This document shows, in pieces, positions 29,735 to 35,219 of a stretch of 64,000 nt of DNA. Below the pieces are notes generated by a model, which saw nothing but the letters and a program-made list of their open reading frames with translations, searched no databases and was not told the origin of the DNA. This DNA comes from Phycisphaeraceae bacterium (lineage in GTDB: Bacteria > Planctomycetota > Phycisphaerae > Phycisphaerales > UBA1924): NCBI GenBank assembly GCA_021297895.1, contig JAJTHN010000019.1, positions 1 through 64,000 of the forward strand. Reading direction: 5' to 3'. The position numbers and the translations under genes were made by a program. Within the stretch, counting starts at the first letter, position 1. Each line of letters opens with the position of its first letter.

Positions 29735-30601
29735 TTACTGGCAGCCGAGGAAGAACGCGGCGAAGAAGGCGGAGAAGTCGCCGTTGTCGAGGGTGTTGTC
29801 GGGGCCGCCGCCGGTGAGGATGGTTTCGCCATCGGTGTTGGCGATGTCCGCCGCGAGGCGCGTGGGGTCGGACTCTGGCGCGAAGAAGGCGGTGAAGAAG
29901 GCGATGAAGTCGCCGTTATCGAGGGCGTTGTCGGACCCGCCGAGGATGGGGTCGGTCAGGCGTGTTTCGCCGTCGGTGTTGGCGATGTCCGCGGGGGAGC
30001 ACGCGGCGATGGTCATGGTGAGATTGTCGATGTAGAAGTCGTTGGGGAAGGTGGAGGTGTTGAGATTGCGGACGGCAACGACGGAGGGGCCGGCGGTGAG
30101 CGGGGCGGTCCAGAGGGCGGAGTGGGCGATCCAGAGCTGCGTGCCGTTGGGCAGTGTGGTCGGGGTGCCGATGAGACTGCCGTTGAGTTGCCATTGGAGC
30201 CTGGCGGGTCCGCCGGCGACGGCGGTGGCGGCGTGCAGAGTGAGTCGGTAGGTGCGGCCGGGCAGGGGGTTGACGGTGGCGAACCAGATGCGCTGGTTGG
30301 GAACCGTCGAGCCGTTGATGACCATCATGAGCACGGAGCCGGGGATGGAGGGCGGCGGGTTGACGAAGGAGCCGTTGAAGGATGAGCCGTTGGAGCGGAC
30401 GGTGTATTGGCCCTCGCAGCAGTTGCCGCCGGAGGAGAAGGAGTAATCGGAGGAGAAGCCGGTGTTGCCGAGTTCGAAGTTGCCGTTGGGCAGGAGGTTC
30501 TGCGCGACCGCGGCGGGGGTGAGGGGGGTGAGGAGACAGAGCGATGCCAATGCGGCGGAGGCGCGTGAAGTGATGCGGCGCGGTGTGGAGTTGAGCGGCA
30601 C
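29735..30601 (-). CDS. Secreted GC-type dockerin protein with jelly-roll-like domain
   Basis: 288 aa from a GTG start with GGAG 7 bases upstream. Signal peptide at about residues 10-35 ('LASLCLLTPLTPAAVAQ'). Mature start N-L-L-P-N-G-N-F-E-L-G followed by a beta-rich domain (to about residue 200) ending V-R-N-L-N ... F-Y-I-D-N-L-T-M, as in carbohydrate-binding or PEP-CTERM-type jelly-roll domains. Two GC-type dockerin units follow, each with A-D-I-A-N-T-D-G-E-T and D-N-G-D-F-x-A-F-F, ending G-C-Q. The frame extends upstream to 30817 without a credible signal peptide, so the GTG was chosen. Divergent from the copper operon. Confidence 0.8.
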   Translation of the reverse strand: MPLNSTPRRITSRASAALASLCLLTPLTPAAVAQNLLPNGNFELGNTGFSSDYSFSSGGNCCEGQYTVRSNGSSFNGSFVNPPPSIPGSVLMMVINGSTVPNQRIWFATVNPLPGRTYRLTLHAATAVAGGPARLQWQLNGSLIGTPTTLPNGTQLWIAHSALWTAPLTAGPSVVAVRNLNTSTFPNDFYIDNLTMTIAACSPADIANTDGETRLTDPILGGSDNALDNGDFIAFFTAFFAPESDPTRLAADIANTDGETILTGGGPDNTLDNGDFSAFFAAFFLGCQ

Positions 30602-30781
30602 GTGATGCTCCGGGGGATTGGGTCGCGCGGGATGAGCGCGGCGGGTGGAAGGGCGCGTGGTGCGGGAGGTGGGGAATCCGTCGCGGGCTTCGTTGAGTGT
30701 ACAAGCAGGCTTCGGGCCGCCGAGGTGAGGGGGAAGTGGCGAGTGGATCGGTGTGAACGGGCCGGAAGCGGGAGCAACCAA

Positions 30782-30802
30782 TATACCCCGTGGGGGTATA
30801 AT
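30782..30802 (+). promoter_or_regulatory. CsoR operator overlapping the copper-operon -10 box
   Basis: TATACCCC-GTG-GGGGTATA (30782-30800) matches the G-tract dyad of copper-responsive CsoR operators. The right arm runs into a perfect TATAAT at 30797-30802. Transcription would begin about 30808-30809, i.e. at the csoR start codon. No good -35 hexamer is visible at 17 bp, which fits a weak or activator-independent leaderless promoter. Binding by the adjacent CsoR would block the -10 box; copper would release it. Confidence 0.85.
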
Positions 30803-30807
30803 CGTGC

Positions 30808-31272
30808 ATGAGTACACGTGGCAAAAAGCAGGGTGAGAAGGGCGGCAAGTCGCGGAATGGTGTGGGTGCGGGTGCGGGTGAGGCGCGATCGGTGGGCAGT
30901 GACGCCGCGTGCGGGTGTGGCTGTGCGGTGGGCCGAGGGGGAGAGGCTGAAGTTGATCGCGGGAGTGGCCGCGTCGGGCCGGGCGGTGTGGCGCACGGGG
31001 TGGATGCGGAGATCAAGCGGCGGAATCTGGCGCAGTTGCGGCGGATCGAGGGGCAGGTTCGGGGCGTGGCGGCGATGGTGGAGGGGGATCGGTACTGCGC
31101 GGATGTGATCACGCAGATCGCGGCGGTGCGGGCGTCGTTGCTGGCGGTTGCGGGGAATGTGCTGCGGAATCACCTTGAGCACTGTGCCGCGGCGGCGATG
31201 GAGCGGCGCGGGCCGGACCGCGAGGCGATGATCGACGAGGTGCTGGACCTGGTGTCGAAGGTGTCGCGGTGA
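30808..31272 (+). CDS. csoR: CsoR-family copper-sensing repressor
   Basis: 154 aa. Core (about residues 64-154) is the all-helical CsoR/FrmR fold: L-R-R-I-E-G-Q-V-R-G-V then Cys97, His122 and Cys126, with the spacing (25 and 29) of the Cu(I)-binding Cys-His-Cys triad of known CsoR proteins. The first ~63 residues are an unusual Gly/Arg/Lys-rich extension with Cys35, Cys37 and Cys39 (A-C-G-C-G-C-A). The ATG at 30808 has no Shine-Dalgarno and sits where the transcript should begin, so leaderless translation is likely; a shorter start is possible but has no better signal. First gene of an operon with a copper-type lipoprotein, a barrel and CopA. Confidence 0.92.
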   Translation: MSTRGKKQGEKGGKSRNGVGAGAGEARSVGSDAACGCGCAVGRGGEAEVDRGSGRVGPGGVAHGVDAEIKRRNLAQLRRIEGQVRGVAAMVEGDRYCADVITQIAAVRASLLAVAGNVLRNHLEHCAAAAMERRGPDREAMIDEVLDLVSKVSR

Positions 31273-31347
31273 GGCGGGGCGCGGGTGCGGCGTGACGGCT
31301 GTGGCGATCCGGGAGTGAGCGCGAGTTCTCATGCAAAGGAGAAGCAC

Positions 31348-31731
31348 ATGAAGTTGAATCAACGGCGGATCGGCGTCGCGGTTGTCTGGACGGTGATGCT
31401 GGCTGGCGCGGCCGGCTTTGCGGTGTTGGGCGGTTGCGGGGTGGAGCGGCCGCGGGCGGATGCGTCGGTGAACGAGGCGATCGCGGACGATCGGACGATC
31501 GAGGGGCGCGAGGCGGTGCTGACGGTGTTCGGGATGAGTTGTCCGCTGTGCGCGAACAACGTCGACAACACGCTCAAGGAGGTGCCCGGGGTTGAGACTG
31601 TGTCGGTGGACATGGGCAGCGGCGAGGTGCGCGTGGGGCTTGACGGGAAGACGCCGGTGACGCGCCGGCAGCTTGCGCGGGCGGTTGATCGGAGCGGGTT
31701 CAGCCTGAAGAAGGTGGAGGTGCGGCCGTGA
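31348..31731 (+). CDS. HMA-domain lipoprotein (periplasmic copper chaperone-like)
   Basis: 127 aa. Lipoprotein signal peptide with lipobox L-G-G-C (Cys30). A ~25-residue acidic linker leads to a heavy-metal-associated domain (about 55-127) with G-M-S-C-P-L-C-A-N-N-V (Cys65, Cys68), V-P-G-V-E-T-V-S-V-D and A-V-D-R-S-G-F. AAGGAG 6 bases before the ATG fixes the start. HMA domains carry Cu(I) or similar soft metals; most are cytoplasmic (CopZ) or periplasmic (MerP), and membrane-tethered ones are less common. Its stop overlaps the GTG start of the barrel gene (GTGA), so the two are coupled. Confidence 0.88.
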   Translation: MKLNQRRIGVAVVWTVMLAGAAGFAVLGGCGVERPRADASVNEAIADDRTIEGREAVLTVFGMSCPLCANNVDNTLKEVPGVETVSVDMGSGEVRVGLDGKTPVTRRQLARAVDRSGFSLKKVEVRP

Positions 31732-32570
31732 GTCGGAGCGCGTGCGCGATCGCGGCGGCGATGGTGGCGGTCGCTGGGGCGAGCGTGCCGGTGATGGCGC
31801 AGGAGGCGACGCACACGCCCGCGGCGACGCAGCCGGCGGCGGGGCGGCTGTACATGCGGCAGAAGGTTCAGTATGTGTCGTTCGGCGATGATCCCTCGCC
31901 GGAGGCGCGTGACATCACCAAGGTCGTGTCGACGACAACGCTGACCTACGGGCTGCGTCGGGACACTTCGCTGAGTCTGGAGGTGCCGATGGCGTACGCC
32001 GCGGAGGTGGCGCACGGCCGGCACGCGACGCGGCGGTTCGGGGTCAACGACATTTCGTTGTCGATCAAGCACCGGCCGTGGCAGTTGGACCTGAACCCGG
32101 TGGACTCGCTGCGGCTGGCGGTGGTCGGCGGTGTGGAGGTACCGAGCGGGGATGGGGACTTCTCGAGCCACTCATTCGACCCGTTCGTCGGGGCGGTGTT
32201 CACGGCGATTCTCGGGCGGCACGGCGTGAACCAGTCGATCGTGTACAAGTTCAACACCGGCGGCGACGCGTTCAACACGCGGGCGGGCGATGGGCCGGAT
32301 GATGCGGTTCGGTTCGACACTTCGTACCTGTTTCGGCTTTCGCCGGTGGAGTACTCGGCCGCGTCTGAGGCGGCGACGTATGTCACTCTGGAGGCAAACG
32401 GGTTGTACGAGACCAATGGTGATGTGGAGGTGATCGCGGGGCCGGGGATCTTGTACGAGGCCAGGACGTTCGCGCTCGAGGCGACGATCGGGCTGCCGAT
32501 GGTGCAGGAGGTGCGCGAGCGGCCGGAGGTGGATCTTGTCGTGACGCTTGGACTGCGGATTCTGTTCTAA
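31728..32570 (+). CDS. Outer-membrane beta-barrel protein of the copper operon
   Basis: 280 aa from a GTG start overlapping the previous stop. Signal peptide at residues 1-25 (A-G-A-S-V-P-V-M-A-Q). The rest alternates amphipathic strands: R-F-G-V-N-D-I-S-L-S-I-K-H-R, L-R-L-A-V-V-G-G-V-E-V-P-S-G-D-G-D, and a final V-T-L-G-L-R-I-L-F ending in Phe, as in outer-membrane porins. The G-D-I-x-L ... G-x-x-x-P-S-G-D pattern recalls the MetA/phenol-degradation transporter-like family. A role in copper passage across the outer membrane is inferred from operon position. Confidence 0.75.
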   Translation: MSRSACAIAAAMVAVAGASVPVMAQEATHTPAATQPAAGRLYMRQKVQYVSFGDDPSPEARDITKVVSTTTLTYGLRRDTSLSLEVPMAYAAEVAHGRHATRRFGVNDISLSIKHRPWQLDLNPVDSLRLAVVGGVEVPSGDGDFSSHSFDPFVGAVFTAILGRHGVNQSIVYKFNTGGDAFNTRAGDGPDDAVRFDTSYLFRLSPVEYSAASEAATYVTLEANGLYETNGDVEVIAGPGILYEARTFALEATIGLPMVQEVRERPEVDLVVTLGLRILF

Positions 32571-32597
32571 GGGCCTGTTCGATCTGGAGCCATAACG

Positions 32598-35219
32598 ATG
32601 CGTGCGGGCGAGGAGGACCAGCGAGGGGCAACAGGATTGGGTGGCGGTGGCGGTACAGGAATCGGGATTGATGCGAGTGCTGGTGGAGCTGGCGGCCGGC
32701 GCGTTGAGATGGCGATCGGCGGGATGTCGTGCGCGGCGTGCGCGGCGCACGTGCAGCGCGTGCTGGAAAAGCAGCCCGGGGTGACATCGGCGAGCGTGAA
32801 CTTCGCGACGCGCATGGCGACGCTCGGGGTCGATGCGGGTTCGGCGGATGTTGCGGAGTTGGTGCGGGCGGTTGATCGCGCGGGGTATTCGGCGGAGGTG
32901 GCGGGGGAGAGCGGAGCGAGGCGAGCGGAAGGAGATGGAGGCTCCGAAGGGGCGAGTGGCGATGCGGCCAGCGATGCGGCCAGCGATGCGGGTGGTAATG
33001 CGGGTGGCGACGCTGGCGAGGCGGCAGTACAGGCTGATGCGGAGGATGCCGAGGATGCGCTGCTGGCGCGGCTGGCGCAGGACGGCGCGGTTGAGGAACG
33101 GAGGCTCCGCCGGCGGGTGCTGATCGGGGCTGCGCTCGGTGCGCCGGTGGTGGTGCTTGCGATGTCACACGGCATGCTCGCGGGTGTTGGAGGAGTCGGG
33201 GCGTGGTTGTCGGGGCTCGGCGGGGCGTGGGTGCAGGCGGTGCTGACGTTCGGGGTGCTCGTTCTCGCCGGGGGCTCGATGTTCGCGGGGGCGTGGCGGA
33301 GCGTGCTGCGGCGGGTTGCGAACATGGACACGCTGGTGGCGATGGGGACGGGGATCGCGTTCGTGTACTCGCTGGTTCAGGTCATCATCGCATCCGCGGG
33401 CGCGGACCGTGGGGCGCACGCGGGGCATGGGCCGACGGTGTACTTCGAGGCGGCGGCGGTGATCGTGGTGCTCGTGCTCGTTGGTCGGCTGCTCGAGCGG
33501 CGCGCGACGGCGCGGACATCGTCGGCGATCGGGGGGCTGGTGCGGCTGACGCCGATGGGGGTGATGGTGGAGCGCGGCGGGACGGAGGTGGCCGTACGGG
33601 CGTCGCGCGTGCGAGTTGGAGAGATCGTGATTGTGCGGCCGGGCCAGCGGGTCGGCGTTGATGGGGTGATCGAGACGGGGCGGTCCGACGTTGATGAGTC
33701 TGCGCTCACGGGCGAGGCGGCGCTGGTGGTTCGCGGCGTTGGCGAGCGGGCGTTCGCGGGAACGCTCAACCGCACGGGCGTGCTGCGGGTGCGGGCGTCG
33801 GCGGTGGGGGCGGGCACGGCGATGGGGCGGGTGGTCCGGCTTGTGCGAGAGGCTCAGGGGACCGCGGCGCCGATCGCGCGGCTGGTGGATCGGGTCAGCG
33901 CGGTGTTCGTGCCGATGGTGATGGGGCTCGCCGCGCTGAGTTTCGCGGCGTGGATGGTGTGGGGGCCGGCGGGAGAGCGGCTGGCGATGGGGGTGCACGC
34001 CGCGGTGAGCGTGCTGATCATCGCGTGTCCGTGCGCCCTGGGGCTGGCGACGCCGACGGCGATCATGGTGGGGACGGGGATCGGTGCGCGACGGGGCATG
34101 CTTGTGTCCAGCGCGGCGGCTCTTGAGGCGGCGGCGGGGTTGCATGTTGTCGCGTTCGACAAGACCGGGACGCTGACGCGCGGGCGGCCGCGGGTCGAGC
34201 GTGTGGCCGCGGCGGAGGGGTGGACGCGCTCGGCGGTGCTGGGGCTTGCGGCGGCGGCGGAGCGGGGCAGCGAGCATCCGTTGGCGTGTGCGATTGTGCG
34301 GGCGGCGATGGAAGAGCGGGGGGCGGTGCGGGGGGCGGCGGCGGGGTCGGCGGAGGGGGTGGCGGCGGGGGCTGAAGGGAGCGAGTTGGCGGTCGTGTCT
34401 TCGCGCATCGAGCCGGGCGTTGGGGTGTATGCCGAGGTTGCCGCGGGCGCGACTGCGGACGGAGGTGATGGTCGTGTGCGGCGGGTTGGTGTCGGGCGGC
34501 GGGCGGTGGTGGGCGAGGATGCTTCGGGGTCGGCGGTGGCGCTGGAGCGGCAGGTCGAGGCGATGGCCGCGGCGGGGCTGACGATCGCGTGGGTCGCGGT
34601 TGATGGGCGTGCCGCGGGGGTGATCGGGCTTGGTGATGAGGTGCGGGCGTCTGCGCACGAGGCGGTGAGCAGGTTGCGCGGGATGGGTGTGCGCGTGATG
34701 ATGCTCACGGGCGACCATGAGCGAGCCGCGGCGGCGGTGGGGGTGTTGACGGGGATCGACGAGATCCGCGCTGGCATGACGCCCCCGGACAAGGCGCGCG
34801 TCATCGGTGAGTTGCGCGGGCGGGGGCTGAGGGTCGGGTTCGTCGGCGATGGGATCAACGATGCGCCGGCGCTCGCCGCGGCGGATGTCGGGATCGCGAT
34901 GAGCAGCGGGACGGACCTGGCGCGGGCGTCGGCGGGGATCACACTGGTGCGGCCCGGGGGCGAGGCGGATCTGCGGGGCGTGGCGGGCGCGATCGAGTTG
35001 TCGCGCGCGACGCTGCGGGCGATTCGGCAGAACTTGTTCTGGGCGTCGTGTTACAACGTTCTGGCGATCCCGGTCGCGGCGGGCGCGCTGTACCCGCTGA
35101 CGGGATGGATGCTCTCGCCGATGATCGCCAGTGCGGCGATGGCGCTGAGCAGCGTGAGCGTGGTGGCGAACAGCCTGCGGCTTGGGTGGGGACGGGGGCG
35201 GAGTGCGGCCGCAGAGTGA
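32598..35219 (+). CDS. copA: Copper-exporting P1B-type ATPase
   Basis: 873 aa. N-terminal HMA domain with G-M-S-C-A-A-C (Cys45, Cys48), then an Ala/Asp/Gly-rich linker with a repeated S-D-A-A/G motif (about 110-145), and the eight-helix P1B core. Seen: the C-P-C metal site in A-C-P-C-A-L-G-L-A-T-P (about residues 476-478), the phosphorylation site D-K-T-G-T (Asp521), S-E-H-P-L, T-G-E-A in the actuator domain, and G-D-G-I-N-D-A-P-A-L (about 753). These mark a Cu(I) pump. GGAG 8 bases before the ATG. Last gene of the CsoR operon, 27 bp after the barrel. Confidence 0.96.
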   Translation: MRAGEEDQRGATGLGGGGGTGIGIDASAGGAGGRRVEMAIGGMSCAACAAHVQRVLEKQPGVTSASVNFATRMATLGVDAGSADVAELVRAVDRAGYSAEVAGESGARRAEGDGGSEGASGDAASDAASDAGGNAGGDAGEAAVQADAEDAEDALLARLAQDGAVEERRLRRRVLIGAALGAPVVVLAMSHGMLAGVGGVGAWLSGLGGAWVQAVLTFGVLVLAGGSMFAGAWRSVLRRVANMDTLVAMGTGIAFVYSLVQVIIASAGADRGAHAGHGPTVYFEAAAVIVVLVLVGRLLERRATARTSSAIGGLVRLTPMGVMVERGGTEVAVRASRVRVGEIVIVRPGQRVGVDGVIETGRSDVDESALTGEAALVVRGVGERAFAGTLNRTGVLRVRASAVGAGTAMGRVVRLVREAQGTAAPIARLVDRVSAVFVPMVMGLAALSFAAWMVWGPAGERLAMGVHAAVSVLIIACPCALGLATPTAIMVGTGIGARRGMLVSSAAALEAAAGLHVVAFDKTGTLTRGRPRVERVAAAEGWTRSAVLGLAAAAERGSEHPLACAIVRAAMEERGAVRGAAAGSAEGVAAGAEGSELAVVSSRIEPGVGVYAEVAAGATADGGDGRVRRVGVGRRAVVGEDASGSAVALERQVEAMAAAGLTIAWVAVDGRAAGVIGLGDEVRASAHEAVSRLRGMGVRVMMLTGDHERAAAAVGVLTGIDEIRAGMTPPDKARVIGELRGRGLRVGFVGDGINDAPALAAADVGIAMSSGTDLARASAGITLVRPGGEADLRGVAGAIELSRATLRAIRQNLFWASCYNVLAIPVAAGALYPLTGWMLSPMIASAAMALSSVSVVANSLRLGWGRGRSAAAE

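Follow-up and report, generated by a model that had tools for sequence, protein, structure and literature searches.

An HMA-domain lipoprotein and its partner β-barrel, from a copper-type operon of a Phycisphaeraceae bacterium to other Planctomycetota

Why should genes for a metal-binding lipoprotein and an outer-membrane β-barrel lie between a copper repressor and a copper ATPase? Such an arrangement occurs in a Phycisphaeraceae bacterium (assembly GCA_021297895.1; 3.48 Mb, 97% complete), within the 64,000-nucleotide (nt) stretch of contig JAJTHN010000019.1 analysed here (the window), where genes for CsoR, a lipoprotein with an HMA domain, a predicted barrel and the Cu-type P1B ATPase CopA follow one another. 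An initial annotation had read the four genes as a three-part Cu(I) export path that ends with outward passage through the barrel. We find that the pair of lipoprotein and barrel, rather than the operon, is the main finding, and that the barrel is the dedicated partner of the HMA lipoprotein.

The pairing was assessed across 163 genomes of the same GTDB family, 77 of which carry such a barrel, with 79 copies in all. Directly upstream of every copy lies an HMA gene of a single type, interrupted by an in-frame TGA in two genomes (G099 and G119). Searching with an HMA profile gave 81 strong matches, 79 of them just ahead of a barrel gene and two at ≤400 nt from a contig end; E-values then drop off from 1e-19 to 3e-15, and the next matches are mostly portions of larger proteins, e.g., ATPases. 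Where a genome carries two pairs (two cases), each lipoprotein stays with its own barrel, and distances among lipoproteins track those among barrels (Mantel r 0.74; highest value in 999 permutations 0.11). Outside the family, 25/25 strong barrel matches in the phylum adjoin an HMA gene. We infer physical contact of the lipoprotein with the barrel. Gene neighbours contradict a barrel dedicated to CopA, because most barrels lie outside CsoR/CopA loci: CsoR adjoins 9/79 pairs, which fall within a single clade of the barrel tree (support 100/100), and CopA adjoins 6/79 barrels, namely five of the nine CsoR pairs and one locus outside that clade (L102), where copA directly follows the barrel gene.

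In the window itself, open reading frame (ORF) and domain searches bore out the annotated order, with four plus-strand ORFs between 30808 and 35219 separated by +75, -4 and +27 nt (Table 1). The annotated GTGA overlap (31728-31731) exists as a 4-nt overlap, formed by the lipoprotein stop codon TGA over the barrel start codon GTG and not by two start codons. A perfect 8+3+8 palindrome (TATACCCC-GTG-GGGGTATA) ends 7 nt ahead of the CsoR ATG; its operator core TACCCCNNNGGGGTA (30784-30798, 0 mismatches) is the sole site in the genome at ≤1 mismatch, and matching palindromes precede csoR in four relatives (L033, L085, L088 and L090). The proposal of a CsoR-controlled copper operon is supported, and since the palindrome is unique and relatives carry like ones before csoR, copper control of this single copper-stress operon is likely. 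The CsoR start is so near the TATAAT that the csoR mRNA may be leaderless; sigma-70 and terminator scans returned nothing.

CsoR carries the Cys and His-Cys ligands of copper sensors (RYC, NHLEHC), identical in 8 relatives, and its nearest NCBIfam family is RicR, under that family's cut-off. It also has an N-terminal extension of ~65 residues (30808-31010) that holds a CGCGC cluster; comparable Cys clusters were observed ahead of the CsoR domains in L031, L032, L085, L088 and L090. CopA exceeds the cut-offs of TIGR01525 and TIGR01511 (500 bits vs 397 for the latter) and has a single N-terminal HMA domain (CAAC) and a CPC motif. A second copper operon built from other HMA genes of the genome was considered and rejected. 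One of these genes encodes an unusual fusion in which a prolyl oligopeptidase (S9) carries an HMA domain at its C-terminus (L170:1772-4417, contig C22), and another a ZntA-type ATPase that lies with a CzcA-like resistance-nodulation-division (RND) protein and a periplasmic adaptor in a separate, Czc-like metal efflux system (L171, C74:5000-13500). Upstream of the operon, positions 29735-30604 on the minus strand encode a secreted protein that carries ADIANTDGET...DNGDFxAFFxAFF-type repeats and matches no Pfam family.

Profile searches placed one member of the pair: the lipoprotein matches PF00403, whereas the window barrel matches no family in Pfam, NCBIfam or PHROGs. The lipoprotein start codon (ATG 31348) is preceded by AAAGGAG, and the protein reads as a lipobox, a linker of ~25 residues and an HMA domain, modelled as beta-alpha-beta-beta-alpha-beta. 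The lipobox is strict in 64/77 relatives and a near variant such as LPGC in several others; an Asp directly follows the lipobox Cys in 1/64, which fits sorting to the outer membrane under the enterobacterial rule. The earlier view of a tethered metal-binding domain, probably anchored in the outer membrane, is supported. The ligand motif in the family reads G-x-x-C-P-x-C; its CPxC part, Pro included, is unchanged across 78/78 aligned HMA domains, and its Cys pair would bind a soft metal. The score against the MerP family TIGR02052 is 27.2 bits, under the cut-off of 92.55 bits.

The ligand positions are marked out further by relatives in which in-frame TGA codons fall exactly on the HMA ligand codons. 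There are 14 such loci: those of G099 (L065) and G119 (L080), and 12 in other Planctomycetota families, where the HMA gene follows right after the barrel gene and becomes visible by reading through TGA. Neither group therefore lacks the HMA gene, as a plain reading would have had it; the gene is present and interrupted by TGA. With U for selenocysteine (Sec), the distant ligand forms are U-P-I-U, U-P-V-U, U-P-M-U, U-S-P-U, U-T-P-U, U-L-P-U, C-P-I-U and C-N-L-U, and both ligand positions are Sec in 10 loci. SelB was found over cut-off in 13 of the 14 genomes with TGA forms, compared with 5 of the 32 Cys-form genomes, a difference for which Fisher's p of 1e-6 is a guide only, as the 32 genomes were chosen by hand and not at random (G068, without a barrel, was excluded) and relatives are not independent. 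Strong tRNA-Sec genes are present in G099 and G119 (69-70 bits), G118 and G036, near selB in the first three. Given TGA on the ligand codons and this distribution of SelB, the TGA-form HMA proteins of relatives, as distinct from the window gene, are probable selenoproteins, of a kind that ordinary ORF calling misses because TGA breaks the coding frame. Folding of a hairpin (selenocysteine insertion sequence) after the TGA found no support at the two loci analysed (z -0.11 and +1.65), and no NCBIfam selenoprotein family was reached over cut-off by the TGA-form proteins. A 2026 review (PMC13188914) lists UxxU metal-binding and MerT selenoproteins, and a word search of it returned no HMA lipoprotein and no planctomycete.

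Table 1. Features of the copper-type operon (positions in the window) and of TGA-containing HMA genes in relatives (positions in the named locus).
Feature	Position	Strand	Basis or remark
CsoR-type operator	30782-30800	not assigned	palindrome; overlaps TATAAT 30797-30802
CsoR copper-type repressor	30808-31272	+	PF02583 6.8e-25; RYC..., NHLEHC ligand pattern
HMA lipoprotein	31348-31731	+	PF00403 1.7e-12; lipobox LGGC30; G-M-S-C65-P-L-C68
CPLC metal-ligand codons	31540-31551	+	same positions are TGA (probable Sec) in relatives
Predicted outer-membrane beta-barrel	31728-32570	+	mature chain Q25-F280 after a signal peptide; 12 strands (AlphaFold2 model)
Barrel N-terminal segment QEAxxTxAATxPxxG, possible lumen plug	31800-31847	+	conservation; plug seen in 4rl8 (PMC4493636)
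CopA, Cu-type P1B ATPase	32598-35219	+	TIGR01525 5.6e-161; TIGR01511 7.3e-150; CPC motif
Single-TGA HMA lipoprotein genes	L065:6832-7043, L080:6799-7011	-	CPFU (G099) and UPFC (G119)
Double-TGA HMA genes downstream of distant barrels	L154:6751-7311, L156:6943-7149, L157:5656-5847, L160:6856-7443		UPIU/UPVU/UPMU
Double-TGA HMA genes downstream of distant barrels	L161:5642-5836, L130:1181-1378, L141:902-1465		UPIU/UPVU/UPMU

For the barrel, its profile gave chance matches only against PDB sequences, and a plasmid collection held no relative of the window protein, a distant barrel finding weak 'transporter' matches only. An AlphaFold2 model built from four sequences was of moderate confidence (mean predicted local distance difference test score (pLDDT) 68.5, predicted template-modelling score 0.67), and its closest folds are FapF (5o65, Z 21.2) and the COG4313 channel Pput2725 (4rl8, Z 19.8), with PcoB at Z 14.3, although resemblance in fold between 12-stranded barrels is a poor guide to function. 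PF13557 is matched by 14 of 69 barrel family members (best 6e-13) and not by the window barrel, which ties the barrel to PF13557 at family level only; distant homologues picked up by the family profile exceed the PF13557 cut-off. The C-terminal residue is Phe in 78 of 79 barrel ORFs, the remaining ORF being truncated by a contig end, and charged residues are conserved within the strands (R92, R105, R179, R253, E198 and E227, mature numbering). Mean conservation of the N-terminal segment exceeds that of strands and loops, with Q1 and P12 invariant, although residues 1-9 of the model lie below pLDDT 50; in Pput2725 the N-terminus plugs the lumen (PMC4493636). As the initial annotation held, the barrel falls outside the CopB/PcoB sequence family (PF05275), which is absent from the window genome and present in 11 of the 163 relatives.

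The neighbourhoods of the pair reach beyond copper. In a second clade, a MerR-type regulator adjoins 5 of 7 pairs, and a thioredoxin-MerT-HMA fusion lies at the pair locus L071; several pairs of the phylum outside the family sit in MerR/MerT/CopZ operons, one with MerA. The locus with the MerA-like reductase (L151) reads MerR, HMA, barrel, MerR, CopZ/MerT fusion, reductase. A multicopper oxidase and a TolC-type protein are encoded near the pair in L088, L142 and L143, in the last of these in the order lipoprotein, barrel, TolC-type gene, multicopper oxidase. Explanations by mercury only or by copper only were rejected, the pair being found in both contexts. A small exported Cys-rich protein precedes ~52/77 pairs, mostly those with neither regulator; the window operon lacks it, as do most members of the clade. 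It has a Pro-rich middle, a conserved C-terminal LC[VI]W[RT]T and no Pfam family (e.g., L043:5059-5394 and L093:4248-4607). Separately, a small membrane protein of MerC/MerT-like look, without a Pfam match, lies between the MerR and HMA genes of L078 (4471-4935).

From what was computed here (the paired genes and their conservation, the positions of the ligands, the operator and the predicted barrel), we favour, with some confidence, a reading in which lipoprotein and barrel form one outer-membrane metal relay module within a copper-stress operon. Cu(I) would release CsoR from its single operator and so switch on all four genes, copper being the presumed inducer; CopA would move Cu(I) into the periplasm; and the lipoprotein, on the inner face of the outer membrane and next to the barrel, would hold a soft metal through CPxC, the two proteins handing metal across, or controlling its passage via, a narrow plugged channel. 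We weigh outward and inward flow equally. The pair is portable, occurring also in MerR/MerT/MerA-type and stand-alone loci and with probable Sec ligands in selenium-using genomes.

Several points weigh against the relay. Many of the 79 loci are related by descent and so are not independent, and about 65 of the 79 have no neighbouring CsoR, MerR or CopA, so that at most loci it is the HMA domain that speaks for a metal role. The barrel is nearly free of Cys (0.1 per protein) and has no conserved Met, and hence no path of soft-metal ligands. The authors of its nearest solved relative, Pput2725, doubt hydrophilic transport through that channel (PMC4493636), and the outer-membrane anchoring of the lipoprotein was judged by rules taken from E. 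coli.

Which way would metal move? In the export path first proposed, CopA delivers Cu(I) to the periplasm, the HMA lipoprotein collects it and the barrel releases it down the gradient that CopA builds. CopA does share the locus in the window and in 4 clade members, and it follows the barrel in L102; induction under copper excess is what a CsoR operator would lead one to expect, and the multicopper oxidase and TolC-type gene near three pairs point the same way. This path is nevertheless tentative, since CopA is not beside most pairs, the barrel has no conserved soft-metal ligands, and the pair is also part of a MerA-containing mer operon, in which metal flows inward. The outer membrane, moreover, has no energy source, an argument made for PcoB, whose authors note that a barrel with no power supply has no means of exporting up a gradient (PMC9210255).

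Controlled entry appears possible to a similar degree: the barrel would admit soft metal or its complexes, and the tethered HMA domain would trap them and pass them to MerT, periplasmic oxidation or cuproenzymes in the manner of MerP or PcoB. The barrel of another copper operon, PcoB, is reported to import Cu (PMC9210255); the pair lies inside the MerR-MerT-MerA locus L151 and in MerT-HMA operons, uptake would suit the stand-alone loci, and very tight Sec ligands suit a trap. It is, however, counter-intuitive for an operon with CsoR and CopA, and no copper-uptake regulator was seen.

Passage of an ion may be unnecessary altogether if the barrel serves to fix or orient the HMA domain, or is a FapF-like exporter of a metal-binding polypeptide, in which case the upstream Cys-rich protein, with its conserved C-terminus, could be the cargo in many loci. 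The lumen may be plugged, and the top fold match is indeed the polypeptide exporter FapF. That match is not functional evidence, as all 12-stranded barrels score well, and neither the window operon nor most of its clade carries the Cys-rich gene. We consider this account unlikely. Least probable is a redox role in place of metal carriage, with the thiols (or selenols) of the CPxC/UPxU HMA domain serving to repair envelope thiols that have become oxidised or metallated: CPxC, with its invariant Pro, resembles glutaredoxin-type motifs and Sec usually marks redox sites, but the HMA fold and the metal-operon contexts argue otherwise, and Sec at both positions in 10 loci is unusual for a resolving Cys and matches the known UxxU metal-binding family.

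The relay module is assembled from pieces of known kinds. COG4313/PF13557 (Phenol_MetA_deg) channels such as Pput2725, TcpY and SphA, and FapF, share with the window barrel 12 predicted strands, a short N-terminal segment before strand 1 and a C-terminal Phe, but their solved members are not linked to metal, whereas the window-type barrel is always paired with an HMA gene. PcoB/CopB, with periplasmic PcoC/PcoE, likewise combines a copper-operon barrel with a periplasmic Cu binder; the partner in the window is instead a predicted outer-membrane-anchored HMA lipoprotein, and the barrel strands carry conserved Arg and Glu. MerP/MerT have a periplasmic HMA domain in common with the pair, which is found in MerR-MerT-(MerA) operons of other Planctomycetota; unlike MerP, the HMA domain of the pair is lipid-anchored, has CPxC or UPxU and comes with its own barrel. 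The UxxU metal-binding (seleno)protein NF041115 and the MerT/CopZ selenoprotein NF045683 share an HMA-type domain with Sec ligands, but all scores against them were under cut-off, and here the domain belongs to a lipoprotein with its own barrel. The RND efflux systems CusCFBA and CzcCBA also join a periplasmic metal carrier to an outer-membrane component, whereas the window operon has no RND pump or TolC protein. Searches of the open-licence full-text literature for the pair or its parts listed no paper that describes the pair in its title or abstract, and the obligate pairing, the spread over copper and mercury loci and the Sec forms were likewise not found there.

The pair mostly escapes standard gene finders and family libraries. 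We give about even weight to a wider interpretation, namely a phylum-wide soft-metal outer-membrane system in which a CPxC/UPxU HMA lipoprotein and its own COG4313-like barrel, often with a Cys-rich exported third protein, would serve as an obligate relay of metal, with separate connections to copper regulons and to mercury regulons. The handling of soft metals at the outer membrane, including its direction, is unsettled even for PcoB, and the pair offers a small, conserved two-gene test case in which the selenocysteine forms single out the important residues.

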